Source: a candidate division LCP-89 bacterium B3_LCP (GTDB taxonomy: Bacteria > Electryoneota > B3-LCP). From it: 64,000 nucleotides of DNA. A program made the translations under genes and the position numbers. A model generated the notes under the pieces. It searched no databases. It was not told where the DNA came from and saw nothing but the letters and a program-made list of their open reading frames with translations. The stretch lies in assembly GCA_005223185.1 (NCBI GenBank), contig NJBN01000007.1, positions 64,001-128,000 of the forward strand, in the 5' to 3' direction. How positions within the stretch are numbered: position 1 is the stretch's first letter; each line of letters begins with the position of its first letter. Shown here piece after piece: positions 3,053 through 48,660 of this stretch.

Positions 3053-4324
3053 ATGGGACGCTTTTACATAATATTGGTGGTCGGTTTCGCAATTATCGGT
3101 GGTTCCATGAAGATAAACCATGGACGGCTGTCACGCGAAGCTCAGAATATCACTTCTGACAAATACGTTGAAGCATCAGCAAGGAATGCGACGCGTAGTA
3201 TGGTTAATCTGTGCCTTTACCAGCTATCCCAGGATTTCGATTGGCGGGATGGATACGCTAATGTGCAGATACAGGATATAGCTAACACAAATTGTCAGAA
3301 ATTTCAAGGATTGAACACCAACTGTGCAGGTGCACTGATTCAGGATAACTCGGATAATTCTGATATCCCATTAGGGCAGATAAAGATCACAGCGAACGGT
3401 GCTTTTGGTGACACAGCCATGACATCTGTGGTCATGCTGAGGAAATCCGCCTATTCCGAATTCGCCTATTTCACCGAGATGGAACCTCCAATTTACTTTA
3501 TTACGGGTGATTCAATTCATGGTCCCATACATACAAACGGTAAATTCCATATATGGGGTGATCCTGTCTTTTATGGATTAGTATCATCCAAAGGCAATGG
3601 TTGGGTTGGAGTTGGAAGTCCGGAATTTAAGGGCGGTACCAACTTCAATTGTGAAAGAATTGATTTACCTGTGGACATGTCTATCATCGATGGAAAAGCT
3701 CAAAATGGCGGTACTTACTTTGAAGGAGACATTGAGATAGAGTTCATCAGCGATGGCACTTTCGACTACACCGCTACGCACCTGGAGAAAATTGGACCGA
3801 ATTGGGTGACGATCATAGATTCAACGGGAAATGTTACCATATCCAGCACTAATGGTGTTATAGGTACCGGCAACGGTGGTGACATTCGTGTCAAGGGCAC
3901 TCTGGACGGTCAGGCTACGATGCTGGCGGACGGCGATATCTGGATAGACGATGACGTTCTATACGCTCAAAATCCACTTACCGATCCCACGTCAGATGAC
4001 ATACTGGGATTGATCTCTCAACATGATATTTTCGTTACCAACAACGCCGCTAACCAGAACAACTGCACTATCCACGCCACCCTGATGGCACTGGATAGGA
4101 GTTTCATGGTCGAAGATTACAACCAGGGCAGTCCCAGGGGTACACTCGAAATTGTTGGTGGTATTGTGCAGGATAAGCGAGGTTCTGTAGGGACTATGGG
4201 TTGGGGTAGCGGAATCATATCAGGTTATCAGAAGAATTACATATACGATTATCGCTACATGTCCAGCGCACCACCTTTTTACCCTATTATGACAAAAAAT
4301 TCGCTGGTCTCATGGTACGAATAG
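3053..4324 (+). CDS. DUF4900-like pilus/secretion-associated exported protein
   Basis: 423-residue protein with an N-terminal membrane segment (about 4-20) and a long extracytoplasmic part. The stretch around residues 155-190 (GDSIHGPIHTNGKFHIWGDP then FYGLVSSKG) is the hallmark of DUF4900 proteins, which occur beside pilus genes in FCB and thermophilic bacteria and are predicted to form beta-solenoid-like folds. Later Gly-rich strands (GNGGDIRVKGTLDGQATMLA) agree with that. A strong RBS (TAGGAGGA) precedes the ATG. It follows the PilW-like gene by 95 bp. Exact function unknown; possibly a PilX/PilY-like minor component. Confidence 0.7.
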   Translation: MGRFYIILVVGFAIIGGSMKINHGRLSREAQNITSDKYVEASARNATRSMVNLCLYQLSQDFDWRDGYANVQIQDIANTNCQKFQGLNTNCAGALIQDNSDNSDIPLGQIKITANGAFGDTAMTSVVMLRKSAYSEFAYFTEMEPPIYFITGDSIHGPIHTNGKFHIWGDPVFYGLVSSKGNGWVGVGSPEFKGGTNFNCERIDLPVDMSIIDGKAQNGGTYFEGDIEIEFISDGTFDYTATHLEKIGPNWVTIIDSTGNVTISSTNGVIGTGNGGDIRVKGTLDGQATMLADGDIWIDDDVLYAQNPLTDPTSDDILGLISQHDIFVTNNAANQNNCTIHATLMALDRSFMVEDYNQGSPRGTLEIVGGIVQDKRGSVGTMGWGSGIISGYQKNYIYDYRYMSSAPPFYPIMTKNSLVSWYE

Positions 4325-4614
4325 ATACATTTCCATATAAAGAAAAAACCGATCTCTGCCGATATGAGAATAGGAGAATCCTGGCGGAGACGGATTTCTA
4401 AAGAGAATTAACGTCCGGAGGTCAATTTCGGTCTTAGAATCCGAAACGGATGATAAGAATACGATTCGTATGCTAAGAAGACCGTGAAGGCATCGTTCCG
4501 CCCCGACCCCCACGGTGCCACTGGCCTTCGGACAAAGAACTCTTTCTTGGGTAATTTTGGATTCGCCAAATAACACGCTTCCCACACTTCTTGAAACCGG
4601 CAAGAGGCTTCAAC
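4325..4614. other. 290-bp gap inside the pilus cluster
   Basis: No ORF of convincing length, no tRNA and no clear terminator. Several short purine-rich GGAG-like motifs (around 4370-4420) and a tiny 15-codon frame starting at ATG 4363 are present but not supported as a gene. It may be the leader of the lipoprotein gene. Confidence 0.4.
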
Positions 4615-6339
4615 ATGCTAAAATATGCTGCGCTGCCTGTACTGTTCCTCATCTTTATCTTTTTAGGATGTGACCAACAGGCAACCAACCTGGAAGCAGG
4701 TCAGGAATGGGCTCACCTTACCGGAACTGTCAAGTATGCCGAAAATTTGCTACCTGTGAATATGGCTTTTGTACGTACGCAGAACCACATGGAAACTACC
4801 GAAACTGATTCTACGGGCGAATATGATCTTTCCATAGCACTGCCTAAGGACCAACAGGAATCGGTGATTCTGGAGATCTATAAGGAAGGATATTTAACCC
4901 TCAACCTGCAAGCAATCATAGCGGCAGGACAGACCTCTCCTATACCAACGGTTACCCTGGAAAGATATTTAGATTCCACCATTACAGATACCACCTATAC
5001 AGGTTCAGGACCACCGGAAGGTATAGTTGTGTTTTCCATAGAACCGGATACCTTAAGCGTAACCGGCGTTGGTGGCTCCACAATAAGTCATATCGTCTGT
5101 GAAGTTCAAGATGCGTCCGGGCGTGCGGTTGATACTTTGCATACTGCGCAGGTCTTATTCGATTTTCAACTGGATCCGGGAGGCGGTGCGTATATCTACC
5201 CTACCTCAGACGTAACTGATGATTCCGGACGTGTCGCTACGGACTTCTACTCGGGAACGGATGCGGGGATGGCCATCATTAAAGTGCAATTCGCATCATC
5301 ATCGACGTTCATTATAGTCCCTGAGATCACCATATTCCAGACTGGTGAACCAGCATCGATAACTCTGGAGTCCATAGAATACGATTCTGTCGCTGTACAG
5401 GGTACGGGAGCAAACGAGGTTACCACTGCCACCTTCGTTGTGAGAGATGCCGGTGGATCTCCGCTTAGTGCCAGTCAACCTACAGAGGTCAATTTTGAGA
5501 TTCTAGGACCTACTGGCGGAGGTGAATACCTCTACCCTGAAATGGACACTACCGATGTTATAGGTCAGGTGAGCACGACTCTGAACAGCGGAACCGTCGC
5601 AGGAACCGTGCAGCTTCGTGCTTATATCGTGGGCACCGATACCATATCCTGCACGCCAGTTCCCATTACCATTCATTCAGGACTGCCTGATCCGGTGCAT
5701 TTCGGAGTGTATCCGAGATATGTTAATTTCCCCGGATACAACTACTTTGGACGCGAAGACAGCATCATTGCTATCGTGGGCGATCAGTATTCCAACCCGG
5801 TGCCTTCGGGAACTGCTGTATATTTCAGCACAGATGCGGGCATCATCGAAGGTTCGGCAGTAACCGACACAGCCGGTTTCGCCACAGTTCGACTTTTTTC
5901 AGGACCGCCCGTGCCATCGCCTTTATACCCATTCGGGCTAATTACTGCGCAAACCGTGGGTGAAGGCGGGACAATTCTGACTACTAATACGGAAGTGCTT
6001 TTTTCAGGTATGACTCAGATAGAACTAGACGATACGTTAGACTTTGTTATTGATGATGGTAATTCTAAAACGTATGACTTCCGAGTTTCCGATCAGCACG
6101 GATATCCCATTTCTTATGGATCTAAAATAGAAGTCTCAGCTACAGCCGGCGGTGTTTTAGGTGATGTGGACGTAACTTATCCGGATACTCAGGATACCAC
6201 AAGCTGGACGAATTTCAGCTTCGTCATCTATGACAATAATCCGGGAGATCCTGACCCGGCAGTTTTAGCGGCAGTAACCATTATGGTCACCAGCGCTAAT
6301 GGCGACGCCTCGATGATCATAAACGGTACTATTGACTAA
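4615..6339 (+). CDS. Lipoprotein with carboxypeptidase-like and bacterial Ig-like repeats
   Basis: The frame is open from TTG 4591, but ATG 4615, preceded by AAGAGG at a 7-base spacing, gives an ideal lipoprotein signal: hydrophobic LPVLFLIFIFLGC with Cys as the acylation site. After the Cys comes a CarboxypepD_reg-like module (LTGTVKYAENLLPVNMAFVR), then about four repeats of roughly 100 residues with the Big_1/invasin pattern (e.g. TSDVTDDSGRVATDFYSGT, MDTTDVIGQVSTTLNSGT, VTDTAGFATVRLFSG). It is likely anchored in the outer membrane and exposed outside or in the periplasm. Its place between pilus genes suggests an accessory pilot or surface role (inference). Confidence 0.8.
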   Translation: MLKYAALPVLFLIFIFLGCDQQATNLEAGQEWAHLTGTVKYAENLLPVNMAFVRTQNHMETTETDSTGEYDLSIALPKDQQESVILEIYKEGYLTLNLQAIIAAGQTSPIPTVTLERYLDSTITDTTYTGSGPPEGIVVFSIEPDTLSVTGVGGSTISHIVCEVQDASGRAVDTLHTAQVLFDFQLDPGGGAYIYPTSDVTDDSGRVATDFYSGTDAGMAIIKVQFASSSTFIIVPEITIFQTGEPASITLESIEYDSVAVQGTGANEVTTATFVVRDAGGSPLSASQPTEVNFEILGPTGGGEYLYPEMDTTDVIGQVSTTLNSGTVAGTVQLRAYIVGTDTISCTPVPITIHSGLPDPVHFGVYPRYVNFPGYNYFGREDSIIAIVGDQYSNPVPSGTAVYFSTDAGIIEGSAVTDTAGFATVRLFSGPPVPSPLYPFGLITAQTVGEGGTILTTNTEVLFSGMTQIELDDTLDFVIDDGNSKTYDFRVSDQHGYPISYGSKIEVSATAGGVLGDVDVTYPDTQDTTSWTNFSFVIYDNNPGDPDPAVLAAVTIMVTSANGDASMIINGTID

Positions 6340-6360
6340 CTCAGTACATTAACGTTTGAC

Positions 6361-7632
6361 ATGAATGATTCGGTGACGATACAGGAAGAATCCAACAGCG
6401 AAATTGCAGAACTGCCAGAAGCCTTGCTGATTCTGCATTCGCTGGAAACCAACATATCTAAGTATCTCACCGGAGTAGAAAGGATGGAGGCTATTGCAGA
6501 TGGCCTCACCAAACTGGGGAACCCGGAACGGGAACAATTAAAACAGCTCTTTGAAAATTTTCTGCTGCGCATGGTGGAAGAGGAAGCTTCCGATATTGAT
6601 TTGGGTGGACAGGGTTCCTTAGGCCAGATCTGGCTTCGCATTTACAACAACAAGAGGCCTGTATTTGACCTGGAGGCTTATTCGTTGGATCAAATTAACA
6701 TCTTAAACCTCAATATCTTAACACCTCAACAACAGAAATTCTTATTCGATAAACGGAATCTGGATTTTTCCTATGCGGTAAGCTATAAGAGTGAAAGCGC
6801 TCGTTTTCGCGGGGACATGTATTTCGATTTGGATCATTTGGCCCTAAACATGCGTCGTATTAACAATAGTATTCTTCCATTCAAGAATTTAGGCTTTCAT
6901 CCACATGTGGCCAAGGCACTTTCATTAAAACACGAAAAACAGGGTTTAATATTAGTTACCGGCATTACCGGTTCGGGTAAATCCGCGACGCTCGATAGTA
7001 TAATTGATGCGAACAATAATACAGTAGATGCTCACATAGTTATTATCTCAAGTCCTGTGGAATGCGTTCACATATCAAATCGCTGCATCATCCGCCATCG
7101 TGAGGTGGGGCGTGACGTCATGAGTTTTAAGGACGGCGCTATTCAGGCGTTGCGGCAGGATCCGGATATTATAATGATTGGTGAGATGAGAGACTCTGAT
7201 ACGATTATGACGGCGTTGGAGATCACAGATTCGGGACATAAGGTGTTTTCAACCTTGCACACAGGCTCAGCGGTCGAATCTATTGATAGAATAGTGGGTG
7301 AAATGCCAACTTCCGAACAGGAGAGAGTCAGAATTAGATTGGCGGACGTGCTTAAGGTGGTTATCTCACAAAAGTTGGTTCCTACTATAGATGGCAGGCG
7401 AATATTGGCTAAAGAGATCCTCATAGTCAACTCTTCAGTGAAGGCAGCGATTAAAAATGATAACGCTGGAGAGATATACCAGATGATCAGTGAGAACGGC
7501 AAGGAAGGGATGAACACCATGGAACAGGACCTTCGCCGCCTTGTTGTGGAGAAGAGAATCAGCTTAGAAGAAGCCATTGACCACGCAAATAATAAGAACC
7601 GCATGAGAGAGCTGTTGGAATATGCGGATTAG
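6361..7632 (+). CDS. PilT/GspE-family ATPase (PilT-like)
   Basis: 423 residues; ATPase core in the C-terminal two thirds. Walker A is GITGSGKSATLDS, Walker B-like IIMIGEMRDSDT, His box FSTLHTGSAVES. There is no CxxC zinc element, so it belongs with PilT-type retraction ATPases rather than PilB. The first about 100 residues are a family-atypical acidic extension. It begins 21 bp after the lipoprotein gene. Together with the PilB-like ATPase at the left edge it gives the cluster both an extension and a retraction-type motor, which favours a type IV pilus over a pure type II secretion system. Confidence 0.87.
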   Translation: MNDSVTIQEESNSEIAELPEALLILHSLETNISKYLTGVERMEAIADGLTKLGNPEREQLKQLFENFLLRMVEEEASDIDLGGQGSLGQIWLRIYNNKRPVFDLEAYSLDQINILNLNILTPQQQKFLFDKRNLDFSYAVSYKSESARFRGDMYFDLDHLALNMRRINNSILPFKNLGFHPHVAKALSLKHEKQGLILVTGITGSGKSATLDSIIDANNNTVDAHIVIISSPVECVHISNRCIIRHREVGRDVMSFKDGAIQALRQDPDIIMIGEMRDSDTIMTALEITDSGHKVFSTLHTGSAVESIDRIVGEMPTSEQERVRIRLADVLKVVISQKLVPTIDGRRILAKEILIVNSSVKAAIKNDNAGEIYQMISENGKEGMNTMEQDLRRLVVEKRISLEEAIDHANNKNRMRELLEYAD

Positions 7633-7670
7633 CATTCGGACGATTCAAGTATTTAAAGGTTAGGGACACC

Positions 7671-9902
7671 ATGAATATCAATCCCCTGGGAAATTCGGCG
7701 GGTAACCAAGTTCTGGGCGTTATGGTGGATGGTAAGGATCTTCGTATCGCTCATCTTGGTAGCGAGAACGGCCAGATAATAATACATTCCCTGGAATCGT
7801 ATGTACTACCCACCAGGCTTGGCAAGATACGAAAATCCGAGGTTACATTTCCTGCTGCAATTGAAGATGAGCGGGGTGATGTATTGGGGTTTGACGAATC
7901 CGATCAGGAGAGTGAAGGCTTCGATGATATCATCGAAGACCTTGATGAAGAGGGAGAAGACGTCTCCAGCAGCATTATCCACATCTTTGATAAGTATCCG
8001 TTGAAACAAGCCAGAATTGCCGCAAATATCCCTGAAGGACAGGCTACCTATTACAGTTTTGATAGTGATTTTGGTCTCAATGGTAAAAAGCTAAAGAGCA
8101 GACTCCAAGAAGAGATCGCCCCTCTCGCCGGTGGCTCATTAGAAACCGCCATTGTCGATCATTTCAAGACGGATAGTGATAATCTAATGGTGGTCGTCTC
8201 TGAAGGTAATATTCCTATAATGGAGGAGATCTTAGATGTAAAAAACTTTCTTTCTAGCGGCAACCCGTACTTCTGCCAGGTCAACGCCAATGAGATTTCT
8301 CTGGTAAATTTAGTTCGCTTGTCTATCGATCCGGCGGATGATATAATTACCGCAGTAATCTACATCGGTGCGGACTTCTCGCGCGTCATCCTCATGAAGG
8401 GAAAGGATCCCATATCCTTCATTCAAGCAATTCATGAAGGTTATCATTCACCCCAGGTATGTCAGACTCTGTTCAGCAAGATCCTTTTAGAGCAGGAAGA
8501 GGCTGGTATTCCAGAGATCGATAAGATAGTACTGGCAGGTGAAATCGGGATGACACGCGCCCATGATTTCTTCACTAAACAGTTTCCCAATATTGACGTG
8601 CAGCCGATTACCTCGGGTCCATTGGATACCGGTATGCTCAAGAATGAAGAAATCGCTATATTTCCGAATTTCGCCATTCCGGTGGCAATGGCATGGGAAG
8701 CCCTGGATAGGAAAAACCCGGACTTCATCAGGGCAGATCTACTTCCACCGTCCATCGTGGAAAACCAGAGGAGCTTCAAAATTGCCTGGCACGGTCTCCT
8801 GCTACTTGGAGTGATATTCGTCTGCATGCTCTTTCTTTCATATTTCGGCATTACGCGCTTCAAAGAGATACAGGCTCTCAAGAGTTCCATCAGCACAAAA
8901 CAGAGTTCCATTGAAAGCTTGCAACAGGATCTCCTATATATCAGCCAGCTCCAATCACAGATCAATCAGAACAATTCAAATTTGTCTTTCTTGGATTCCT
9001 TAGTTGTCGATGCCAACAAGTGGAGTCGTCTCTTTGCCAAACTATCAACAGATTTTAAAAATATAAATCGCATCTGGATAGAGCGTATTCAGTCCACTCC
9101 TGAAGGATTCACAATGCAGGGTAAATCGCTTTCCCGTGATAAAATTCCCGTGTTAGCAGCCGGTTTCAGCGGCGTGAATCTGCGCAGAGTCAGCAGGATT
9201 ATTTCAGAAGCGGGTCAAGTCGAATATCAATTCGAACTTGACGCCAATATACCGATACCACCTGAAAAGGAAATAGCAACAGTAAGCGATGTCAGCTCGG
9301 ATCGTAACCAGGACATTGCCGGAAGCATAAAAGATGGTTTGCAGCCATCGGATAAAACTATCTCCAGGGAAAAGTCAGAGAAAACAGCTTCAGTAACAAG
9401 AAGTAATGTAAACTCCGGCAAGAAAGGTGAATTCACGCCTCTATATAAAGGCACAACTGTGAGCAGTTCAAAATCTAAAGTGGCAGATAAACCGAAAACA
9501 AAATTAGCACAAAGGAAAACAACGTCAACGGCGATTACTCAATTGTACGCTAATGGGATGAATTTAATAAAAAACCGTGATATTGAAAACGCGGCGGTTG
9601 AATTTAAGAAATTGGTGCTCAAATATCCAACGTCCGATGAGGCGCCGTCGGCTTACTACTGGATAGGTGAATGTGCTTTTTCACAGAAGCATTATGAAGA
9701 GGCGATAGAAGCTTTCACGACGTCACTTCGATATAATGATAATCCCAAACGCCAGGCTGGAATGGTTATGCTGGGAATGAGTTACCTGAAACTGGGTAAC
9801 GAAGAGAAGGCTCAAAAACAGTTCGAGTCATTGCTGGATGCTTTCCCTGAAGGGGAATTCACGGAAACGGCACAGCGGAAACTCAAAGAACTGACAGGAT
9901 AG
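7671..9902 (+). CDS. Fused PilM/PilN-like protein with C-terminal TPR (YbgF-like) domain
   Basis: 743 residues. Residues about 10-360 look like a degenerate actin-like PilM/GspL cytoplasmic domain (GVMVDGKDLRIAHLG; FPNFAIPVAMAWEAL is the usual PilM end). A membrane helix follows (about 373-392), then a coiled coil (about 400-435) and a PilN-like region to about 530. A low-complexity Ser/Thr/Lys linker (about 540-615) leads to TPR repeats (617-743: YWIGECAFSQKHYEEAIEAF, LGMSYLKLGNEEKAQKQFE) like the YbgF/CpoB C-terminus. Usual pilus operons encode PilM and PilN separately, so this fusion and the TPR tail, presumably periplasmic, are unusual. Confidence 0.75.
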   Translation: MNINPLGNSAGNQVLGVMVDGKDLRIAHLGSENGQIIIHSLESYVLPTRLGKIRKSEVTFPAAIEDERGDVLGFDESDQESEGFDDIIEDLDEEGEDVSSSIIHIFDKYPLKQARIAANIPEGQATYYSFDSDFGLNGKKLKSRLQEEIAPLAGGSLETAIVDHFKTDSDNLMVVVSEGNIPIMEEILDVKNFLSSGNPYFCQVNANEISLVNLVRLSIDPADDIITAVIYIGADFSRVILMKGKDPISFIQAIHEGYHSPQVCQTLFSKILLEQEEAGIPEIDKIVLAGEIGMTRAHDFFTKQFPNIDVQPITSGPLDTGMLKNEEIAIFPNFAIPVAMAWEALDRKNPDFIRADLLPPSIVENQRSFKIAWHGLLLLGVIFVCMLFLSYFGITRFKEIQALKSSISTKQSSIESLQQDLLYISQLQSQINQNNSNLSFLDSLVVDANKWSRLFAKLSTDFKNINRIWIERIQSTPEGFTMQGKSLSRDKIPVLAAGFSGVNLRRVSRIISEAGQVEYQFELDANIPIPPEKEIATVSDVSSDRNQDIAGSIKDGLQPSDKTISREKSEKTASVTRSNVNSGKKGEFTPLYKGTTVSSSKSKVADKPKTKLAQRKTTSTAITQLYANGMNLIKNRDIENAAVEFKKLVLKYPTSDEAPSAYYWIGECAFSQKHYEEAIEAFTTSLRYNDNPKRQAGMVMLGMSYLKLGNEEKAQKQFESLLDAFPEGEFTETAQRKLKELTG

Positions 9903-12031: not shown

Positions 12032-12082
12032 AAAGAATCCGCCGAACCCCCTTTTTTCAAGGGGGGATCAGTATTGAACGTT

Positions 12083-12123
12083 GCGTCAGGTCCTGAACGA
12101 AGTGGAGACCTGACGCTTTTTTT
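12083..12123 (+). terminator. Rho-independent terminator of the pilus/secretion cluster
   Basis: Perfect 10-bp stem GCGTCAGGTC (12083-12092) / GACCTGACGC (12107-12116), followed by seven T. Fragments of the same sequence recur near 23300, 23537 and 30983, so the stem seems to be part of a dispersed intergenic element used here as a terminator. Confidence 0.8.
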
Positions 12124-12228
12124 GTGCCGCAGAGTCCCTGCACTCTGCGATTAAAATAGCTGCTATTGTAATATGAAACCCGACCCTGAAGAGGTCGGGC
12201 CACTCTGTCGCTTGGTTTTTCTCCCGTC

Positions 12229-12284
12229 GTCCCGCCCGAGCGGGACACCCCCCTTTTTCTCAAGGGGGGATTAAGGGGGGATCA
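12229..12284 (+). repeat. Composite palindromic repeat, left copy
   Basis: An 18-bp palindrome GTCCCGCCCGAGCGGGAC (12229-12246) runs directly into a CCCCCCTT...AAGGGGGG hairpin and GATTAAGGGGGGAT. A related C-run/G-run hairpin lies at 12047-12068. The same composite occurs in opposite orientation at 15520-15571, on the other side of the TIR gene. Confidence 0.75.
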
Positions 12285-12323
12285 GAACAGCAGGGTGGCC
12301 CTACCTCTACAAAATTCCCAATT

Positions 12324-15095
12324 CTACATTCTAAATTCTAAATTCTTAACCTCCCCATCCCGCCGGTGGTAGCCCGTATCGTCTATCATCTTCTTGGCCT
12401 TACCCAAATGCTCCCGCGCCTTCTCTTTCTCACCCTTTTCTGAATACAACCGCACATACCCCAAATGGCAATCCGTCTCGTGCAAACGCATCTGCCCTAA
12501 GGTGGCGATCTCCATCGCCTCCTCTAAATCGTGTTCACAGTTCTCAAGTTCCTCCTTAACCCGATACAGCTCTGCCCGTGCCAGTAAACCTCTTGGAAGA
12601 TGATCCTGTGTCCCTGCCTTCCGCAATCCATCCACCGCCTCGTTCAGGTGAGTCTCAGCCTTGCTGAAATTGGTTCCCTTTTCCTTCACAATCTGTAAAA
12701 GATATGCGCGTCCGCTTGTGAGGTTTTCAAGAGCTATATCTAGGATAGGATCTTTAGGTTGACGCCATTTCAAAAGCTCTTTTGCTCTATTCAGGACGTC
12801 TGAATATTTTCCCTGCCCTAATAGCAGATCGCAGTATAGAAAGCCTCGTTGCGAATAAAGCAGTGGATATTCAGGCTGCAATTTCACCTGCATTTCTTCA
12901 GCCTTTACAAACCAATTCTCTGCTTCTTTCAATTCACCGGACTGATGCAGAGCATCAGCAAGATCTGCGCGCATAACTATCTTAAAAAATACATAATCGC
13001 TTTTATCCGCGTATTCAACGCTCTGCTCTGCATATTCCCGCGCTTTTCTGACTTCCCCTAAAGTTAAATTTAGTTCACTTAAGTTACCCGCCTGTATTGC
13101 AACATTTCCCCAATCTTTAAGTTTTTTCCGTATTTCTAATCCTTTTCTCATTGATTGAATAGCTTCTCCCAATCTCCCTAACGCCCTGAGGTCAAAACCT
13201 GCATAGTTTAAAATAAATCCCTGATCTGCCTCAGTGAGGTTTTTGACAGCCTGCCTCCAGGGTGGATCGAAGAAATTTGATAATACCGCCAACTCAGCAC
13301 CTATTGCACCGAGTATTTTGGTATTGTAGGCTTTATCTCTCCTCTGTATCCGCTTAAAGTAAACATCATCCAGCGCCTCCTGGTGCAGTCCCGCCTGGCA
13401 GCCGTGCGCTACCGCGGCATAAAGCGGCAGCATCTCTGTAAATGTTTCAGGTAATTCCTTGGCAGTAGCCTTGTAATATTCGTACAACCTACGGTGCGCC
13501 TCTTTCCAGGCAGCAGCATTATCACTTTTAAGCTTCTCACCAAAATGTTCGCGTATCAGTGGGTGGCAGTCTAATGTGTCCGACTCTCTTGCAATTTTTT
13601 CAGCTAAGAGCCGGGCTTTGCGCAAGTTTTCCAGCGTAAACTTCCAGTCCTCATAAGATAGGTTCGTTATCTCGGTTGTCAATCCCGCGATAGCGGGACC
13701 GGCTTTCAGAGTTTCTAAAGCGCTCCCTTCCGCCGGCCGGTCAAAAAGCCCCATCATATAGAGCACGTCCAGTTCTGGTTTTTTCTCAAACATCCGTTCA
13801 TAGGATTTCATTACCCGCCGGGCATGGCCGCCCTGCTTTGGGTCTTTGGTCAACTGTGCAATTTGATCTCTCTTGCGAATGTCTCCTTCATGTACTACAG
13901 ATAGGTAATTGCCCAACAGGTTCAGCGCCAGAGCGTGTCCCTCAAATTCTTCAGATGCTTCCTTCAGCTCCTTTTCCGAGCCTACGGCGCCGCGTTTCTC
14001 CAGTAGTTTTGCCCCTGCTTCCGGCGTCAGTTTTTCCAGGTCAATATGTTCTGCCAGCGAACCTTTAAAACGTTTCAAATCCTCCACTTCCAACCGCGTG
14101 GTCACCACGCACAATCCCGGGTTGTGGCTACTTAATCCTCGCAGAAGGCTCTGCATGCCAGGATCACGCAACTGTCCTCCCATTTCGCCGGGCGGGTACT
14201 GGATCGGTTCTAAACCGTCCAAAATCAGCAGCGTGCGTCCTTCCCGCACCAAATTCGCCAGCCGTTCGCCCTTCTGCCAGGGAGATCCTTCCGTGGGATC
14301 GGGATCACCGAACCATTCCAGCGCCGCCGCAATAAAGGGATCGGCGGAAGCCTGTTTGTCTTCGCTTGTTCCCTGACTGTAGAAGGAATAGCCGTACACC
14401 CGCTGCGCTCCCCGGTAGTGATCCTGAGCCATATTGTTCAACCACACGTTTACCAGAGCAGACTTACCCACACCCCCGAAAGCCACCAGACTGATGACGT
14501 TGGTCTTTTCGCTCTCCCAGGCTTTATCCAAAATCTCCAGTTCCCCCTCACGGCCCAAGAGGGTTGAGTCGGTGGTGGGCAGTCTGGCTATTTCAATATT
14601 TTCTGGATCGATGGGAACATAAGTATTTCTAGTAGGTGGATGTTTCCCAGGTCCGATTATATCAGCGATTTCCTCTGCTATGGCTGATAGCTTCTTCTCC
14701 TGATGATTTTCATCTCCTTCCAAAAGTGGCTCACTATCCTTTGGTCTAACCTGCATTCTTGACAACCAGTTGACTTTTTGCCAGGGACACGGTTTCACAA
14801 TCACTGGAAAAACACGCACACCATCTCTGGCTCTTCGCTCCATCAAGCGCGGTACTTCCTCGTTTTTTATAAATTTGGAGGTGAGAAAATTCGCCGAAAT
14901 CATAAATATAGCAACACTGGTAACATTCATGGCCTCTTTGATCTCTGGGAACCAGTCATCGCCCGTTTCAATCTGCGTATCAACCCAGATATCTAAAATA
15001 TCCTCCATCTGAAGTACTTCCAAATGAGTCTTCAGACGCTCCATCCAGTCTTTATCCTTATGACTATAACTAATAAAAATCGTTGGCTTATCCAT
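12324..15095 (-). CDS. TIR-STAND NTPase-TPR protein (candidate immune sensor)
   Basis: 923 residues, three parts. Residues 1-145 form a TIR domain (box FISYSHKD at 7-14; Glu79/Glu80 in the helix where NAD-cleaving TIRs carry the catalytic Glu). Residues about 175-540 form an NB-ARC/STAND NTPase with P-loop GGVGKS (207-212), Walker B LLILDG (289-294) and the NB-ARC-type VTTR motif (331-334). Residues about 550-915 are TPR repeats, the usual ligand-sensing arm. Known relatives bind a trigger through the repeats, oligomerise with ATP and activate TIR to deplete NAD or make a signal molecule. Role in phage defence is inferred. AAGGAG precedes the ATG. It is a single-gene unit between inverted repeats, facing the pilus cluster. 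Confidence 0.88.
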   Translation of the reverse strand: MDKPTIFISYSHKDKDWMERLKTHLEVLQMEDILDIWVDTQIETGDDWFPEIKEAMNVTSVAIFMISANFLTSKFIKNEEVPRLMERRARDGVRVFPVIVKPCPWQKVNWLSRMQVRPKDSEPLLEGDENHQEKKLSAIAEEIADIIGPGKHPPTRNTYVPIDPENIEIARLPTTDSTLLGREGELEILDKAWESEKTNVISLVAFGGVGKSALVNVWLNNMAQDHYRGAQRVYGYSFYSQGTSEDKQASADPFIAAALEWFGDPDPTEGSPWQKGERLANLVREGRTLLILDGLEPIQYPPGEMGGQLRDPGMQSLLRGLSSHNPGLCVVTTRLEVEDLKRFKGSLAEHIDLEKLTPEAGAKLLEKRGAVGSEKELKEASEEFEGHALALNLLGNYLSVVHEGDIRKRDQIAQLTKDPKQGGHARRVMKSYERMFEKKPELDVLYMMGLFDRPAEGSALETLKAGPAIAGLTTEITNLSYEDWKFTLENLRKARLLAEKIARESDTLDCHPLIREHFGEKLKSDNAAAWKEAHRRLYEYYKATAKELPETFTEMLPLYAAVAHGCQAGLHQEALDDVYFKRIQRRDKAYNTKILGAIGAELAVLSNFFDPPWRQAVKNLTEADQGFILNYAGFDLRALGRLGEAIQSMRKGLEIRKKLKDWGNVAIQAGNLSELNLTLGEVRKAREYAEQSVEYADKSDYVFFKIVMRADLADALHQSGELKEAENWFVKAEEMQVKLQPEYPLLYSQRGFLYCDLLLGQGKYSDVLNRAKELLKWRQPKDPILDIALENLTSGRAYLLQIVKEKGTNFSKAETHLNEAVDGLRKAGTQDHLPRGLLARAELYRVKEELENCEHDLEEAMEIATLGQMRLHETDCHLGYVRLYSEKGEKEKAREHLGKAKKMIDDTGYHRRDGEVKNLEFRM

Positions 15096-15947
15096 AGTAC
15101 AACTCCTTTACCCGGGTGCCCCACAGCTCTGCTGTGGGAAAGCGCTTTCTTGTCGAAACCACTGATGCGTACGGATCCCGCCAAAGCGGAACAAGTTTGG
15201 CGTATTGAACGGATAATTATCTGCGAAATCTGTGTAATCAGCGTAATCTGTGGTCCAGACATTTTCTTCTAAATCGCTGATTATCATCGTATAGGAGGCG
15301 GGATAGCCTCTATCCCGCTGACTGCGAGGAGTCAGCGGCACGAATAATTACTGATCCCCCCTTAATCCCCCTTGAAAAAGGGAGGCACGATGGATAGTAA
15401 ATTTAAGGCATCGTTCCAGAAATTACAAGTGGGGATTGGGGTTTTTGGTTATGGGAGGTGTGCGTTGTATTTCTGATCCCTTCTTAATCCTCTCTTGAAA
15501 AAAGGGAGGTTGGGTGGTTTCCCCCCTTCCCTCAAGGGGGGTGTCCCGCCCAGGCGGGACGGGGGGATTAATATTCTCCCAAATATCCCTTGCTTTCCCC
15601 CGTGATCTGTTGTATATTATATATATGACATCTAATATCCGCAACAATCATCCCTAAGAACACATCCCGACAATGCACTACCTCCATTTACTATTATCTT
15701 CCCACTGCGTCAATAATGTCGTTGCACGGTTCCAATCGTGCGTGATATCACCGCCATAATTGTCCGACACTGGATTTTGTCCGCCACATCTGTCACTTTC
15801 ACTGCTGCCGAGTTTCTATCACCTATGCAGCTGAGTATGACTCCAATTATTGAGTTAACAAAAAAAAGCAGCAACCCTGAAGTATCATTCAGGATTACCG
15901 CTGTAAAGTATAATGTTAAATCTTTAGTGCGCCGACGCGATTGATTC
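15096..15947. other. 852-bp gene-free region upstream of the TIR gene
   Basis: Filled with palindromic intergenic repeats: CCACAGCTCTGCTGTGG near 15121, an AATCTGTG...CAGCGTAATCTGTGG phrase near 15220-15255, G/C-run hairpins at 15352-15384 and 15474-15510, and the composite repeat at 15520-15571. An open frame at 15738-15944 has no recognisable features and is not called. No RNA gene or mobile-element gene is seen. Confidence 0.6.
15520..15571 (-). repeat. Composite palindromic repeat, right copy (inverted)
   Basis: Holds the palindrome GTCCCGCCCAGGCGGGAC (15543-15560) and a CCCCCCTT...AAGGGGGG hairpin. Read on the minus strand it matches the left copy at 12229-12268 in order and sequence, so the two copies are inverted around the TIR-STAND gene. 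Confidence 0.7.
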
Positions 15948-23563: not shown

Positions 23564-24781
23564 TTATTGCATAGAAACATTGCATCCCAAAAACCTAAGA
23601 CCAGCATTGGAATTGCTATTCCTTATTGGGTATTCTTCTGGATAATAAAATCCAATAAGTTCCTGAATACTTGAAGTTCCAAAGTATCTCAGGGAAAGGT
23701 CGCATTCAATCATCCGATCAATTAAGCCCTCGTTTCCATGAAGTAAAAACTCCCAAGCAGCTTTTATGTTGCTGAGATCATTATTTCTGGGATTTAAAAA
23801 CCTAGCCTTATTTAAGTTAAAAGATTTCATACAGTTTAGTTGATTTATAACTTCTCTAACGCTCGATCGCGTCAAATGTTTGATATTCTTAGGATTTAAA
23901 ATTTTACGGATACGTTTTGATGCTAACATACGAAATGATATGTCGTTTCCCCTACCTACACTGTCTGAAAATTTTGGCACGTATTTCTTGATCTCCCTAT
24001 TTTTATCTTCTTCACCTAGCACTCTAGGTTTTAACAGAGGAACGCCTTTATTTTTTCCATACTTTCTTGATGGTTTAGTATCATAATGATACAAATAATC
24101 AAGAAACGCATCGAATTCAAGGTACAAAGGCATATTAGGGTCTAACCTCTGTTCTTTTAAATAGGTCTTTGCCAGATGTTGATATTTATGAAGAAATATT
24201 TTATAATCCCTAAATTTGTATGATGAAACCTGTCTACTTGAAAATCTGCTTGGTACAGGAGGTAATTCCCACAACTTCGGAAGTCCCTTTCCTTCTCTAT
24301 CTTCATGGCTCTCTCTATTGTCTTTTTGTTTCGATAGTCTTTCCATCCGATCTTGAGGAATCAGGGCTGCCTTCGTTGTCCACCACCTATTGTATAGATC
24401 AATTATTTCATTAACTTCATTCGAACTTAGTAAAACTGCCGTTTCATATCGTCTTGAAAATGCTGTGCCTGTCAAATTTGCTGAAGTTATAATAGATTTA
24501 TTATCAATAATATAAATCTTTGCATGGAGTCCTCTGAGACTTTTTATTGTTCCTCTTACATTAAACCTCTCAATTGTGTCATAGCAAAAACTAGTAAGTA
24601 CCTCAATGTCGGTTATCAACCGTACATCTACTTTTGATCTGACTAGAAGAACATCCCCAAGAATGCAACATATATTTCTCAAAGTTCCAATATAAGGGGA
24701 TGCGACCCAAATTCTTTGCTTTGCATTATCAGACAGTTCACGTAGAGTGTCAACAAGCTTTTTTCCTGTTATGACCTTCAT
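23564..24781 (-). CDS. Phospholipase D-like domain protein of unknown role
   Basis: 405 residues. The N-terminal PLD-like domain (about 1-135) has one HKD signature, LHAKIYIIDNKSIITSANLT with His86, Lys88 and Asp93 followed by Ser100/Asn102, and a downstream Glu113. With one HKD per chain the enzyme would dimerise, as nuclease-type members (Nuc, BfiI) do. The C-terminal 270 residues are Lys/Arg-rich and not recognised. No signal peptide, so a cytoplasmic nuclease is more likely than a lipase. The gene is visibly more A+T-rich than its neighbours, suggesting transfer. Isolated between repeat-rich gaps. Confidence 0.7.
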   Translation of the reverse strand: MKVITGKKLVDTLRELSDNAKQRIWVASPYIGTLRNICCILGDVLLVRSKVDVRLITDIEVLTSFCYDTIERFNVRGTIKSLRGLHAKIYIIDNKSIITSANLTGTAFSRRYETAVLLSSNEVNEIIDLYNRWWTTKAALIPQDRMERLSKQKDNRESHEDREGKGLPKLWELPPVPSRFSSRQVSSYKFRDYKIFLHKYQHLAKTYLKEQRLDPNMPLYLEFDAFLDYLYHYDTKPSRKYGKNKGVPLLKPRVLGEEDKNREIKKYVPKFSDSVGRGNDISFRMLASKRIRKILNPKNIKHLTRSSVREVINQLNCMKSFNLNKARFLNPRNNDLSNIKAAWEFLLHGNEGLIDRMIECDLSLRYFGTSSIQELIGFYYPEEYPIRNSNSNAGLRFLGCNVSMQ

Positions 24782-25060: not shown

Positions 25061-26452
25061 TTACACCTCCCCCCACGCTTGCCGCTTGACAAACTTGCCA
25101 TACCCGGGATTCCCCACAAACTGTCCATCCTTAACGACAACCTTCCCTCTACTTAAGGTGGTTTCAGGAAAACCTGCCATTTCCATTCCCTGGAAGGGAG
25201 ACCAGTCGCAGTTGGTAGCAAGTTCCTGCCAGTCAATCTTTTTCTTCTCTTTAGGATCTATGATAATGATATCAGCGTCGCTGCCGATTGCCAGGGTGCC
25301 CTTTTGGGGATACATGCCCATCAGCTTTGCAGGATTAGTGCTGATGAGGGACACAAAATGGTTGACACTGAAGCGGTTCTCAAGCACACCCTCCGTGTAA
25401 ACCGAAGGCAGCAGTGTTTCCACTCCAGGAAGCCCGAAGGGAATTTTGGTGAAATCGCCTTCCCACATTGCCTTCTGTTTGGTATCGAAGGTGCAGGTGT
25501 CAGTAGCAACGATTGATAATTCACCATCTTCAAGCGCGCGCCAGAGTCTCTGGCTGTCCTGAGGTTTCTTGATCTGTGGACAGGTGGCGTAGAGATGCCC
25601 TTTTTCAGGGTCTTTGAATACTTCGTCATCCAAGAGCAGGTACTGCGGGCAGGTTTCCGCATAAACGTCGATTCCTTTGATGCGGGCTTCCCAGATTAAA
25701 TCCGCTGCTTCACCGGTGGACATGTGCACGATATAGAGCCGTCCCTGGGTAACTTCTGCCCATTTTATGGCGCGCTGCACGGCTTCCTCTTCGACGAAGT
25801 TGGGACGCGATAGCACGTGCGCATAGGCGCCGTATTTTTCCTTTTCAGGGAAGTATTTGTCAATCAGCAGAGACATCACCTTTTGGCTCTCAGCGTGAAC
25901 GCAGATTCTGGCGCCGTTTTCCGCAGTAGCGGATAGAGCGCTGAAGAGAGCCGCGTCATCTGACTGCCAACCTTCCTTCTCATAGATCATGAACATCTTG
26001 AAGGTGGGGATGCCGAATTCGATGACCTGGTCCATTTCAGAATGAATCTTTTCATTCCAATTGGTGATGATGGAATGTAGGGCGTAATCCACGCAAACTT
26101 TCGATTCAGCTTCCTGCATGCGAGCTTCAATTCCCGCCATCAATCCTCTTTCGGCGTCCTGTATGGCAAAATCGATCAGAGTGGTGACTCCACCCCGGGC
26201 AGCAGCTTTGGTACCGGTCAGGAAGTCGTCGGAACTGACGGTGCCGCAAAAGGGCAGTTGCAAATGAACGTGGACGTCTATACCTCCCGGTATGACGTAT
26301 TTTCCTGATGCGTCTATCTCCAGACAGGGTGAATCGCTCTTCAGGTCAGTACCGATACAGGTGATAGTTTCGCCGGTAATTCCCACATCGGCTGGGAAGG
26401 TATCAGAAGCGGTTGCTACCGTTCCGTTTTTTATGATGGTATCGAAGGTCAT
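25061..26452 (-). CDS. hydA: Dihydropyrimidinase / D-hydantoinase
   Basis: 463-residue cyclic amidohydrolase that opens 5,6-dihydrouracil or dihydrothymine to the N-carbamoyl amino acid. Metal-binding HxH in GGIDVHVHLQLPF, the Lys of TFKMFMIYEK that becomes carboxylated, His in ICVHAES and YIVHMST, and Asp in VATDTCTFD are all present, as is the C-terminal GKVVVKDGQFVG strand. Cytoplasmic. Last gene of the run 30862-25061, after the aminotransferase and beta-ureidopropionase, which supports the pyrimidine pathway over general hydantoin use. Confidence 0.92.
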   Translation of the reverse strand: MTFDTIIKNGTVATASDTFPADVGITGETITCIGTDLKSDSPCLEIDASGKYVIPGGIDVHVHLQLPFCGTVSSDDFLTGTKAAARGGVTTLIDFAIQDAERGLMAGIEARMQEAESKVCVDYALHSIITNWNEKIHSEMDQVIEFGIPTFKMFMIYEKEGWQSDDAALFSALSATAENGARICVHAESQKVMSLLIDKYFPEKEKYGAYAHVLSRPNFVEEEAVQRAIKWAEVTQGRLYIVHMSTGEAADLIWEARIKGIDVYAETCPQYLLLDDEVFKDPEKGHLYATCPQIKKPQDSQRLWRALEDGELSIVATDTCTFDTKQKAMWEGDFTKIPFGLPGVETLLPSVYTEGVLENRFSVNHFVSLISTNPAKLMGMYPQKGTLAIGSDADIIIIDPKEKKKIDWQELATNCDWSPFQGMEMAGFPETTLSRGKVVVKDGQFVGNPGYGKFVKRQAWGEV

Positions 26453-26530
26453 TTATAGTACTCCTGGCATTTATTATTGACAATCTTCATAAGAATTCAG
26501 TCAGATTCTGGACAAGCCAGAATGACTGAA

Positions 26531-27877
26531 TTAGATATGTTTAAAACAATCCCCCAGCACTTCCAGAATGAAGTCCGCATCGCTTGCGGTAACGCATAGA
26601 GGAGGTTTTATGCGCAGCACGTTACCGTAAAGCCCGCCTTTGCCAATCAAAAGACCGCGATCTTTGGCGAGTTCCAGCACTTCGGAGGCTGCATCTGCTG
26701 CAGGTTCACGGTTCTGGCGCGACTTTACTAATTCGATTCCCAGCATCAAACCCAGACCGCGCACATCACCGATTAGCTGATGTTTTTTCTGTAGCTTCTG
26801 CAATCCATCTCTAAGGTGTGCGCCTATCTGGAGGCTGTTTTCCTGCAGCCCCTGCTCATCTATTTCCTCCAACGTGGCAATTCCCTGCGCCATGGATACC
26901 GGATTACCGCCAAATGTATTGAAGAAGAATCTATCCTTTAATGGAGCGGCAATTTCTGCGTTGGAAGTTACCGCGCCTAACGGAATGCCGTTGCCGATAC
27001 CCTTCGCCATTGTTATGACGTCGGGCACTACGTTCCAGTTTTCTATTCCCCAATAGTTCGATCCTGTGCGACCGAAACCGGTCTGCACCTCATCAGAGAT
27101 GAACAGGCCACCGTATTTCTTGACGATATCATAGATAATCCCAAAATATTCCGGAGGTGGAACCACCGTCCCCCCCACTCCCTGGATCGGTTCAGCGATG
27201 AAGGCTGCTATCTGACCAGAAGTGGTGCTTAAGATGACGTCTTCAACATCGTAGGCACACGCCATTTTACAGGATGGATAGGTGAGTTTTAACGGGCAGC
27301 GGTAACAATAACCGGGCAGCACATGATGAATATTTGGTTGAGCTGGCACCGGGTAACGCCAGGTGGAATGACCGCACAAACTCATGGTGATGCGGGAACC
27401 GCCGTGATAAGCATTGCGCAGCACGAGAATATCCTGGTTGCCAGTCGAGAGGATTGCCGCTAACAACGCCAGGTCATTAGCTTCACTGCCGGAATTGGTG
27501 AAGAAGGTCTGCTTCAATTCGGAGGAAGGCATCTTCTCTGCCAGCATTTTGGCGTAATTTACGATCAGCGGATGCAGATAAATGGTGGTAGTGTGCTGTA
27601 GGAGCTTTGTCTGTTCGATGGTCTTTTCCAGCACTCGAGGGTTGCAATGTCCCACGCTGATGGTAACAATACCAGCGATGGCATCCAAATACTGCTTGCC
27701 CTGATCATCCCAAACGTACTGCATGCGCCCCTGTACTATAGCAATGGGCTTCTTGTAGTACAGCATGTGGTTGGGCATGAGGTATTCCTGACGCATTGCC
27801 AGAATCTCATCTGCAGAAGGACCGGAGTACGGTTCCGGTGGGGGGATGTTGGGGTTGGGGGGTGTGTGTTTGGTCAT
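26531..27877 (-). CDS. Class III aminotransferase (AGXT2-like, beta-alanine/beta-aminoisobutyrate)
   Basis: 448 residues, fold type I PLP enzyme. Visible: FFTNSGSEANDLAL, FIAEPIQGVGGTVVPP, FISDEVQTGFGRTG with the PLP-contacting Asp, and the Schiff-base Lys in ITMAKGIGNGIPLGAV. A Cys-rich insert around 190-210 (CYRCPLKLTYPSCKMAC) is typical of the AGXT2-like subgroup. In this operon it would convert beta-alanine and 3-aminoisobutyrate to malonate semialdehyde and methylmalonate semialdehyde. Amino acceptor (pyruvate or glyoxylate) not determined. Confidence 0.9.
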   Translation of the reverse strand: MTKHTPPNPNIPPPEPYSGPSADEILAMRQEYLMPNHMLYYKKPIAIVQGRMQYVWDDQGKQYLDAIAGIVTISVGHCNPRVLEKTIEQTKLLQHTTTIYLHPLIVNYAKMLAEKMPSSELKQTFFTNSGSEANDLALLAAILSTGNQDILVLRNAYHGGSRITMSLCGHSTWRYPVPAQPNIHHVLPGYCYRCPLKLTYPSCKMACAYDVEDVILSTTSGQIAAFIAEPIQGVGGTVVPPPEYFGIIYDIVKKYGGLFISDEVQTGFGRTGSNYWGIENWNVVPDVITMAKGIGNGIPLGAVTSNAEIAAPLKDRFFFNTFGGNPVSMAQGIATLEEIDEQGLQENSLQIGAHLRDGLQKLQKKHQLIGDVRGLGLMLGIELVKSRQNREPAADAASEVLELAKDRGLLIGKGGLYGNVLRIKPPLCVTASDADFILEVLGDCFKHI

Positions 27878-28051
27878 TGTGAAGCCTGAATGTTAGTGAA
27901 CATTCGGGTCAACACAAGGTTGACCCCTACGCGCTTTCGCTGATATTCATTTGTGAAACTTGTCCGTCCACCGACGGATCAGCGTAATCTGCGTCCCGAG
28001 GGATGGCTACGCCATAATCAGTGGTTCAGGAGCTTTACTGCTGCTTTGCAT

Positions 28052-28921
28052 TCACAAATCAATAATCTCATCGTACGATTCTGGGCGGCGGTCGCGGAAG
28101 AACTGCCAGGTGTTGCGGACTTCTTTGATCATATCCAGATCCATTTCCGCAGTGATGATCTCCTCCTTATCGCGAGCGCCCACCGCCAGCATCTTTCCAC
28201 GCGGATCGCAGAAGTAACTCTGCCCGTAGAATTCCCCCGTGCGCCAGGGTTCTTCCCAGCCGACCCGGTTGATGGCGCCCACGAAATACTGGTTTGCCAC
28301 CGCATGAGCGACCTGTTCGATTTTCCACAAATACTCTGACAGCCCCGCCACCGTTGCTGATGGATTGAATACAATTTCAGCGCCGTTTATGCCCAAAATG
28401 CGCGCGCCTTCGGGGAAATGACGGTCGTAGCAGATGTAAACACCGATCTTCCCCACCTTCGTTTCAAAGACCGGGTAGCCGGTATTGCCGGGGCGGAAAT
28501 AGAATTTCTCCCAGAATCCTGGGTGGCAATGCGGCAAATGAGCTTTGCGGTAGAATCCTAAAAACTCGCCGCCTGCATCAATGACGGAGGCAGTATTGTA
28601 GTAAACACCAGCCATTGCCTCTTCGTAAATGGGAACGACGATGACCATTTTATGTTTAGCAGCCAGCTCCTGCATCAAGACCGTTGTGGGGCCGTCAGGG
28701 ACGGGTTCGGCGAAATCATACCATTTCTTCTCCTGCTCGGCAGGGAAGTAGTGACCGTAGAAAAGTTCCTGCAGACAGAGCACTTCAACCCCCTGCGATG
28801 CCGCCTGTTCGATTAAGGCTACATGCTTGTCAATCATGGCTTTTTTGATTTTCTTAACCGGCGCGGAAGCATCTTCTGCGCAGTTAACTTGAATGAGTCC
28901 ACCTTTGATTACTCTCGACAT
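28052..28921 (-). CDS. Beta-ureidopropionase-like carbon-nitrogen hydrolase
   Basis: 289-residue nitrilase-superfamily enzyme. Catalytic triad visible: Glu in LCLQELFYG, Lys in YRKAHLPH and Cys in GVYICYDRHFPEG; a second Glu lies in LWKIEQVAHA. The final region (WQFFRDRRPESYDEI) matches beta-ureidopropionase / N-carbamoyl-beta-alanine amidase, which releases ammonia and CO2 to give beta-alanine. N-carbamoylputrescine amidases are close relatives, but the neighbours favour the pyrimidine role. RBS GAGAGGAG precedes the ATG. Confidence 0.9.
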   Translation of the reverse strand: MSRVIKGGLIQVNCAEDASAPVKKIKKAMIDKHVALIEQAASQGVEVLCLQELFYGHYFPAEQEKKWYDFAEPVPDGPTTVLMQELAAKHKMVIVVPIYEEAMAGVYYNTASVIDAGGEFLGFYRKAHLPHCHPGFWEKFYFRPGNTGYPVFETKVGKIGVYICYDRHFPEGARILGINGAEIVFNPSATVAGLSEYLWKIEQVAHAVANQYFVGAINRVGWEEPWRTGEFYGQSYFCDPRGKMLAVGARDKEEIITAEMDLDMIKEVRNTWQFFRDRRPESYDEIIDL

Positions 28922-28944
28922 GTTCTCCTCTCTAAAGGATAAAT

Positions 28945-28961
28945 GATGAAGGATAAAGGAT
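28945..28961 (+). repeat. Left inverted repeat of four-helix-bundle unit
   Basis: GATGAAGGATAAAGGAT. Its complement with one change lies at 29339-29355; together they bracket the gene 28965-29324. Confidence 0.7.
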
Positions 28962-28964
28962 AAT

Positions 28965-29324
28965 TTATTTTTGTTTCTTCTTAACTGTTTTCACACCTGT
29001 TGTTAAGATAGCATTCAATTCATAAGCTTCATTTAACAACTCACTAACGCGATCTTCACTGAATATTTCTGAATCGACTATTAATTCTATCCAATAGATT
29101 GTCTCCTCCAATTCTTGAAGTGCAACCTCTAGTTTACTTATTAATTCAGCATCTGAACGGCTACGCGATCCCTCGCGGTAATGTGCACCTACTGAAGTTC
29201 CTGATCTTAACAGTTGTTTACCTATAACTTGTGCAACTGTAGATTTCGGAAGCGCGGAATATAAACGGATAATTCTTAATGCAAACTTCTTGGTTCGATC
29301 TTTAAGATCAATCTGTTTTTCCAT
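28965..29324 (-). CDS. Four-helix-bundle protein (S23/IVS type)
   Basis: 119 residues. LKDRTKKFALRIIRLYSALP at the start, then AQVIGKQLLRSGTSVGAHYREGSRSRS (abridged here by reading only its first and last parts) and LEELEETIYWIELI mark the 'four helix bundle protein' family (TIGR02436), first known from 23S rRNA intervening sequences and related in fold to the Avd protein of diversity-generating retroelements. The biochemical role is unknown. It interrupts an otherwise coherent pyrimidine operon and is flanked by inverted repeats, the right one starting at the mmsA stop codon, so it looks inserted. Confidence 0.88.
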   Translation of the reverse strand: MEKQIDLKDRTKKFALRIIRLYSALPKSTVAQVIGKQLLRSGTSVGAHYREGSRSRSDAELISKLEVALQELEETIYWIELIVDSEIFSEDRVSELLNEAYELNAILTTGVKTVKKKQK

Positions 29325-29338
29325 CCCCTTGTTATTTC

Positions 29339-29355
29339 ATCCTTTATACTTCATC
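29339..29355 (-). repeat. Right inverted repeat of four-helix-bundle unit
   Basis: Minus strand GATGAAGTATAAAGGAT, 16 of 17 matches to the left copy. It overlaps the TGA stop of mmsA (29351-29353). Confidence 0.7.
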
Positions 29356-47377: not shown

Positions 47378-47514
47378 TTATTTTCTCCAGTAGTGTTATC
47401 AGCAGAAGGAGTAGATGAATATAAATTCTTAAATTCAAAAACTCCGGAATATCTTATTATTATAACCAAATCCTTGACATTCTATTTGTGATGTAGATCA
47501 AGTTCATTTGAAGT

Positions 47515-48590: not shown

Positions 48591-48660
48591 AAAATACGTA
48601 TTGAGGCGATTAGATTATGATTAAAATATCTAAGTTTTATGATAATTAATACTTTACTTG

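Follow-up and report, generated by a model that had tools for sequence, protein, structure and literature searches.

Proteins that join an N-terminal TIR domain to a central STAND NTPase and C-terminal TPRs are known from bacteria. Rousset et al. (2022) described and tested this architecture as 'TIR-NLR'; it is encoded by a single gene of P4-like satellites, protects E. coli against phages and has relatives with a SIR2 or nuclease domain in place of the TIR (PMC9122126). Kaur et al. reported AP-ATPase-TPR genes with an N-terminal TIR (PMC7159879), and bacterial TIR-NB-TPR proteins are on record (PMC9806590). The AP-ATPase-TPR proteins of VMAP/EAD conflict systems share the TIR-AP-ATPase-TPR architecture and carry exchangeable heads, including trypsin, EAD, nuclease and TIR (PMC7159879, PMC8195603). 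The STAND-TPR proteins PH0952 and MalT rest with their nucleotide-binding domain clamped by arm and sensor (PMC6468293); these proteins are regulators, and their heads are DNA-binding domains rather than TIR effectors.

The window analysed here, a 64,000-nt stretch of DNA from a candidate division LCP-89 bacterium, encodes a protein of 923 aa in which N-terminal TIR, central STAND NTPase and C-terminal TPR array are all present. The initial annotation held that its arrangement matches no named system. This was too strong, as the same domain order has been published as TIR-NLR (PMC9122126) and in two further reports (PMC7159879, PMC9806590). The TIR-NLR proteins are phage-satellite-borne and phage-tested, whereas our gene sits on the chromosome of an uncultured lineage; the two are likened by domain architecture. 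While the architecture is already known in bacteria, the subfamily defined by the STAND-TPR chassis is apparently unnamed: no chassis-specific model was found in Pfam, NCBIfam or PADLOC. The chassis starts with LPxTxxxLFGRE and carries the motif YGWSFYSQG.

Domain architecture and predicted structure

The annotated ORF lies at exactly the given coordinates (12324-15095), with an ATG start and a ribosome-binding site, and its order of TIR, NTPase and TPR was confirmed by Pfam domains and a predicted STAND fold (Table 1). In Pfam searches, TIR_2 matched aa 6-107 (E 7.5e-15) and TPR_12 matched from aa 628 on (E 1e-12). AAA_16, NACHT and NB-ARC matched aa 179-399 weakly (E 7e-6 to 1e-4) and under their curated cut-offs; the assignment as STAND NTPase therefore stands on motifs and fold. 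The GGVGKS, LLILDG and VTTR (aa 331-334) motifs were correctly read from the sequence. An alignment of 30 relatives from many phyla showed that G207-G208-x-G210-K211, D293-G294, R334, H387 and H511-P512 are invariant. The HPL motif (aa 511-513) probably occupies the position of the NB-ARC MHD motif. No DNA-binding domain was found in the protein.

Table 1. Coordinates of the TIR-STAND-TPR gene, its domains and motifs, and flanking sequence elements in the window
Feature	Position	Strand	Basis or remark
TIR-STAND-TPR CDS	12327..15095	(-)	923 aa; stop codon 12324-12326; ATG start
Ribosome-binding site AAAGGAG	15103..15109	(-)	sequence; 7 nt 5' of ATG
TIR domain, aa 1-147	14655..15095	(-)	TIR_2 and structural match to RPPT-TIR 7xoz
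Glu80 codon, predicted NADase catalytic residue	14856..14858	(-)	alignment; in model helix 74-91
Linker aa 148-166, low-confidence hinge before head/chassis boundary	14598..14654	(-)	pLDDT < 50 at aa 149-159
Nucleotide-binding domain, aa 167-352	14040..14597	(-)	profiles, alignment, model, fold match
Walker A GGVGKS, aa 207-212	14460..14477	(-)	G207, G208, G210, K211 invariant, n=30
Walker B LLILDG, aa 289-294	14214..14231	(-)	D293, G294 invariant, n=30
Helical and winged-helix domains, aa 353-526	13518..14039	(-)	H511, P512 invariant; Apaf-1, NRC1/NRC2, MalT NOD folds
Arm domain, ~aa 527-620	13236..13517	(-)	model helical hairpins; PH0952 analogy (PMC6468293); boundaries approximate
TPR sensor arm, aa 621-923	12327..13235	(-)	TPR_12; regular helix pairs, pLDDT mostly > 90
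Mosaic segment, aa 600-760	12816..13298	(-)	silent sites saturated versus L002, both flanks similar
41-nt hairpin element	12080..12120		identical copy 3' of L002, order and orientation kept
32-nt hairpin element	12176..12207		97% identical copy 3' of L002
Inverted repeat arm, 21 nt	12265..12285		perfectly complementary to 15351-15371
Inverted repeat arm, 21 nt	15351..15371		partner of 12265-12285

An AlphaFold2 model built with 30 sequences reached a pLDDT of 88.7 and a pTM of 0.75. The top Foldseek match, and the closest solved fold over the NTPase and TPR parts, was PH0952 (6mfv; E 1.3e-14), an archaeal STAND with a TPR sensor; the model has the NBD-HD-WHD-arm-TPR fold of the PH0952/MalT type. 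PH0952 was followed by the plant RPP1 resistosome, Apaf-1, NRC resistosomes and MalT, with Avs3 at E 2.8e-7. With a second structure aligner the TIR (aa 3-148) superimposed on the plant RPPT-TIR (7xoz) with Z 16.5 and an rmsd of 2.0 A over 134 aa. PH0952 aligned over 611 residues with Z 25.6 and an rmsd of 10.9, which means that the domains match but their arrangement differs. The comparison with TIR NADases and Avs/NLR-like STANDs suggested at the outset gave matches to RPPT-TIR, PH0952, RPP1 and Apaf-1, and a weak one to Avs3.

The initial annotation had placed Glu79/80 for NAD cleavage. Among 18 relatives with the same FISYSHKDE-type TIR subtype, residue 80 is a Glu in every one, whereas residue 79 is a Glu in only ten and otherwise K, Q, V or T; the predicted catalytic Glu is retained and narrows to E80. 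E80 would align with the NADase Glu of plant TIRs if a one-residue insertion is allowed.

Other described families share parts of this design. Avs (AVAST) proteins likewise combine a STAND switch with a C-terminal repeat sensor and an N-terminal effector; ours is shorter, and membership in Avs was rejected, with no Avs model among the eight PADLOC families matched at E up to 1. The domain order is that of plant TNPs (TIR-NBARC-TPR) and the TIR fold that of RPP1-type TNLs, but our protein is bacterial, apparently has HPL for MHD and GHAL for GLPL, and shows a TIR identity of ~18%. DUF7779-type bacterial TIR-NB-ARC-TPR proteins have the same order plus DUF7779 and NPHP3-like TPRs, both of which ours lacks. 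One of them (L017, G023:C7) represents a separate clade within the same phylum. No MoxR, vWA or VMAP partner of a VMAP ternary system was found among the window neighbours scanned. With PH0952/MalT, the protein has the NOD, arm and TPR sensor fold in common, which is the basis for the autoinhibition model given below.

Exchangeable heads and distribution of the relatives

Scanning the genomes of 84,980 species yielded at least 44 relatives, a lower bound because it used two peptide patterns only. They come from Aminicenantes, KSB1, Planctomycetota, Nitrospinota, Chloroflexota, Acidobacteriota, Magnetococcales, Myxococcota and others. The chassis starts at the sharp LPxTxxxLFGRE boundary in all relatives with their N-terminal part in reach. 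Most heads are TIRs of several subtypes or SEFIR domains; DUF4062 (L059), Mrr endonuclease (L058), EAD7 (L060) and alpha/beta hydrolase (L075) heads are rarer, and further heads are a ParA-TIR-TIR (L062) and a helical domain of no assigned family (L002, L054, L081). In L062 the ParA-TIR-TIR-STAND-TPR protein has 1429 aa (4531-8814), and another TIR gene (3247-4524) precedes it at a distance of 7 bp. A recent paper reports that DUF4062 is a TIR-like NADase with a role in defence against phages (PMC13174449). Mapped on the chassis tree, the head types together need 16 changes, and TIR needs at least seven on branches with good support. Head exchange has thus recurred, a pattern known for bacterial STANDs (Rousset et al., PMC9122126; Kaur et al., PMC7159879, PMC8195603).

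The distribution is patchy. Some match was found in 9 of 41 related genomes, but full-length TIR-STAND-TPR proteins were confined to the window's genome and a single further one, and the family's five sister genera gave no match to the gene. Carriage by phages or proviruses was rejected, as no relative was present in the phage collection or IMG/VR; the same applies to plasmids, where the matches were TIR parts or distant NB-ARC sequences (27%) and never the whole protein.

In the alignment of relatives from different phyla, the TPR arm has hardly any gaps and shows good conservation. Such conservation is unusual for an arms-race sensor and suggests that the arm may recognise a conserved trigger, although it would also fit a cellular ligand. 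The VIA-align match lists were dominated by TPR matches, and the absence of other families from them is uninformative.

Genomic surroundings and the paralogue pair

The lone-gene context was confirmed: the gene lies between a PilQ-like secretin and T2SSE-type ATPase operon and a cluster of histidine kinase, response regulator and sigma-54 activator genes. In two sister genera (G004, G001) a convergent block of radical-SAM, glycosyltransferase and Rho genes comes after the secretin gene at a distance of no more than 200 bp, and in a third (G002) the same radical-SAM and glycosyltransferase genes come after a short gap. In the window this radical-SAM/glycosyltransferase block is found at 45923-49914, and the ~34 kb between it and the secretin mark a synteny break. 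At the corresponding junction in G002 an ORF that looks HicA-like by eye (L039, 9109-9468) sits between secretin and radical-SAM genes. Of the 'non-core island' originally proposed, the break relative to three sister genera stands, but the genes scanned in the 34 kb are metabolic or regulatory, with two-component, sugar, transport and pyrimidine-catabolism functions, and each of the related genomes searched returned a homologue of the nearby histidine kinase. The data show a break in synteny here but do not demonstrate a mobile or defence island.

Two further observations concern this region. A PLDc_2 protein with weak DrmC and NgoFVII matches is encoded at 23567-24781 (-) and is possibly a lone nuclease. 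A pyrimidine-catabolism-like cluster at 25064-30862 (-) comprises an amidohydrolase, a class III aminotransferase, a carbon-nitrogen hydrolase and an aldehyde dehydrogenase; a KSB1 homologue of our gene (L041) is flanked by similar-looking aminotransferase and amidohydrolase ORFs.

The flanking repeats noted at the outset are real, as a perfect 21-nt inverted pair brackets the gene. Its 15-nt core has six copies in the 3.79-Mb genome, and there is no transposase within the bracket. The G/C-rich repeats were rejected as boundaries of a mobile element: since other copies lie beside unrelated genes and no transposase was found, we treat them as dispersed repeats. Another copy of the bracketing repeat, CCCCCTTAATCCCCC, lies ~150 bp from the start of an LRR-Roc-COR gene (988 aa; L032, G000:C9:140000-148000, 4272-7235).

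The nearest neighbours of about 40 homologues revealed mostly lone genes and no recurring partner. PADLOC searches with 96 neighbours gave few, scattered matches, mostly resembling cross-hits to radical-SAM, kinase and sigma-54 families. Single loci have an NsnB/AriA-like (L049) or a HerA (L053) neighbour, and several contain ORFs that look toxin-antitoxin-like by eye. Among the 96 neighbours no concentration of the homologues in defence islands is visible; enrichment, judged qualitatively, was rejected. As the neighbour matches are scattered, the argument from defence islands is neutral to weak. Homologues confined to housekeeping operons with loss of the NADase residues, a pattern named in the initial annotation as contrary to its reading, were not found.

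The window's genome contains three further STAND-TPR genes. One (L003; G000:C14, 261-3747) has a trypsin head and an adjacent Trypco1 gene, a pair of trypsin-STAND-TPR and Trypco1 as in Kaur et al. (PMC7159879, PMC8195603), and another (L004) has a helical head. The third, L002 (G000:C9, 940-3786), is 70% identical to the TIR-STAND-TPR protein from aa 162 on. It has no TIR; its first ~165 residues form a helical domain that had no Pfam match, was poorly modelled (pLDDT 58) and shares 33% identity with the head of a relative from Calditrichota. L002 is preceded at 78 bp by an HNH-nuclease ORF (131 aa; G000:C9, 466-861), and this nuclease is possibly an effector recruited by the helical head.

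Identity between the two proteins is 88-90% in aa 172-420 and 81% in aa 840-923, but only 44-47% in aa 600-760, no more than either shows with relatives from other phyla. At four-fold third positions the pair agrees at 75% of 128 sites in the NTPase and 72% of 18 sites in aa 840-923, as against 16% of 25 sites in aa 600-760 (Fisher p 4e-8 versus the NTPase and 4e-4 versus aa 840-923). The drop from 75% to 16% at silent sites identifies the pair as mosaic. Selection at the protein level alone would not saturate the silent sites of the middle segment only, and recombination would be the simplest reading, either as replacement of this segment or as gene conversion of its flanks. A tree of aa 600-760 did not group the pair, yet did not reject the grouping either (p-AU 0.37; little signal). 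Because this test of sisterhood lacked signal, the claim of mosaicism is based on the silent sites.

Of all copies of the two hairpin elements (Table 1) that were located in the genome, only those just downstream of the TIR gene and L002 occur in this combination, and upstream of the head boundary the two genes have nothing in common. With the 3' hairpins shared and nothing shared 5' of the boundary, the copied unit therefore looks like the chassis with its 3' flank, to which a new head was joined. Tentatively, TIR gene and L002 may form a natural chimera pair, in which recombination has exchanged both the head (TIR versus helical domain with an HNH neighbour) and the front half of the TPR sensor, giving combinatorial bacterial NLRs; we regard this as possible rather than probable.

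Proposed function and its alternatives

With domain order, intact motifs, predicted fold, E80 conservation, lone gene, patchy distribution across phyla and exchangeable heads established, we consider it likely that the protein is a single-gene, NLR-like immune sensor of bacteria, in which a triggered STAND switch clusters TIR heads that cleave NAD+. It would most likely act as an oligomerising, NAD+-depleting abortive-infection sensor. By analogy with PH0952 and MalT, the arm and the TPR sensor would keep the resting NBD-HD-WHD switch in a closed, ADP-bound state. Once the TPR arm binds its trigger, for which a conserved phage component is the likeliest candidate, ADP would be exchanged for ATP and the proteins would form an oligomer. 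In the oligomer the TIR heads would be clustered and may cleave NAD+ via Glu80, and cell metabolism and phage production would stop. The SEFIR, DUF4062, Mrr nuclease and EAD7 heads at the same boundary are known toxic or defence effectors and favour the immune reading. The lack of the protein from phages, IMG/VR and whole-protein plasmid matches, where many defence genes travel, counts against it.

Part of the evidence would also suit a cellular signalling or regulatory STAND of the MalT/PH0952 type, with the TIR as an interaction or second-messenger module for a physiological cue: the nearest NTPase-TPR folds include the transcription regulators MalT and PH0952, relatives from different phyla have a conserved TPR arm, and a two-component cluster lies next door. 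However, such a role appears unlikely for a protein that has no detected DNA-binding domain and no conserved operon partner, whose relatives bear nuclease, DUF4062 and EAD7 domains in place of its head, and which, unlike a housekeeping regulator, is missing from all five sister genera. The mosaic paralogue pair, in turn, resembles recombining allorecognition genes, and fungal heteroincompatibility proteins have the same tripartite order (PMC10907252). The protein could hence be a programmed cell-death or self/non-self switch, like fungal NLRs with TPR arms, instead of an antiphage sensor; yet nothing specific favours such a switch over phage sensing, and we hold it to be quite improbable.

The TIR itself points to a further alternative, as its best PADLOC match is ThsB (E 9.5e-20, aa 4-124): it may produce an NAD-derived signal that diffuses to a separate effector, as in Thoeris, and not deplete NAD+ by itself. 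This match spans only the TIR part of the model, no ThsA-like neighbour was identified and the homologues are mostly lone genes; membership in Thoeris was rejected, and we give signalling of this kind very little weight.

An immune sensor of the proposed type would add a coherent, apparently unnamed subfamily to the bacterial NLR-like proteins of little-studied phyla. The feature most worth following is the mosaic pair within one genome, a clean test case with near-identical switches, different heads and different sensor halves. If the chimera reading is true, bacterial NLRs would be built from swappable head and sensor cassettes inside a single genome.
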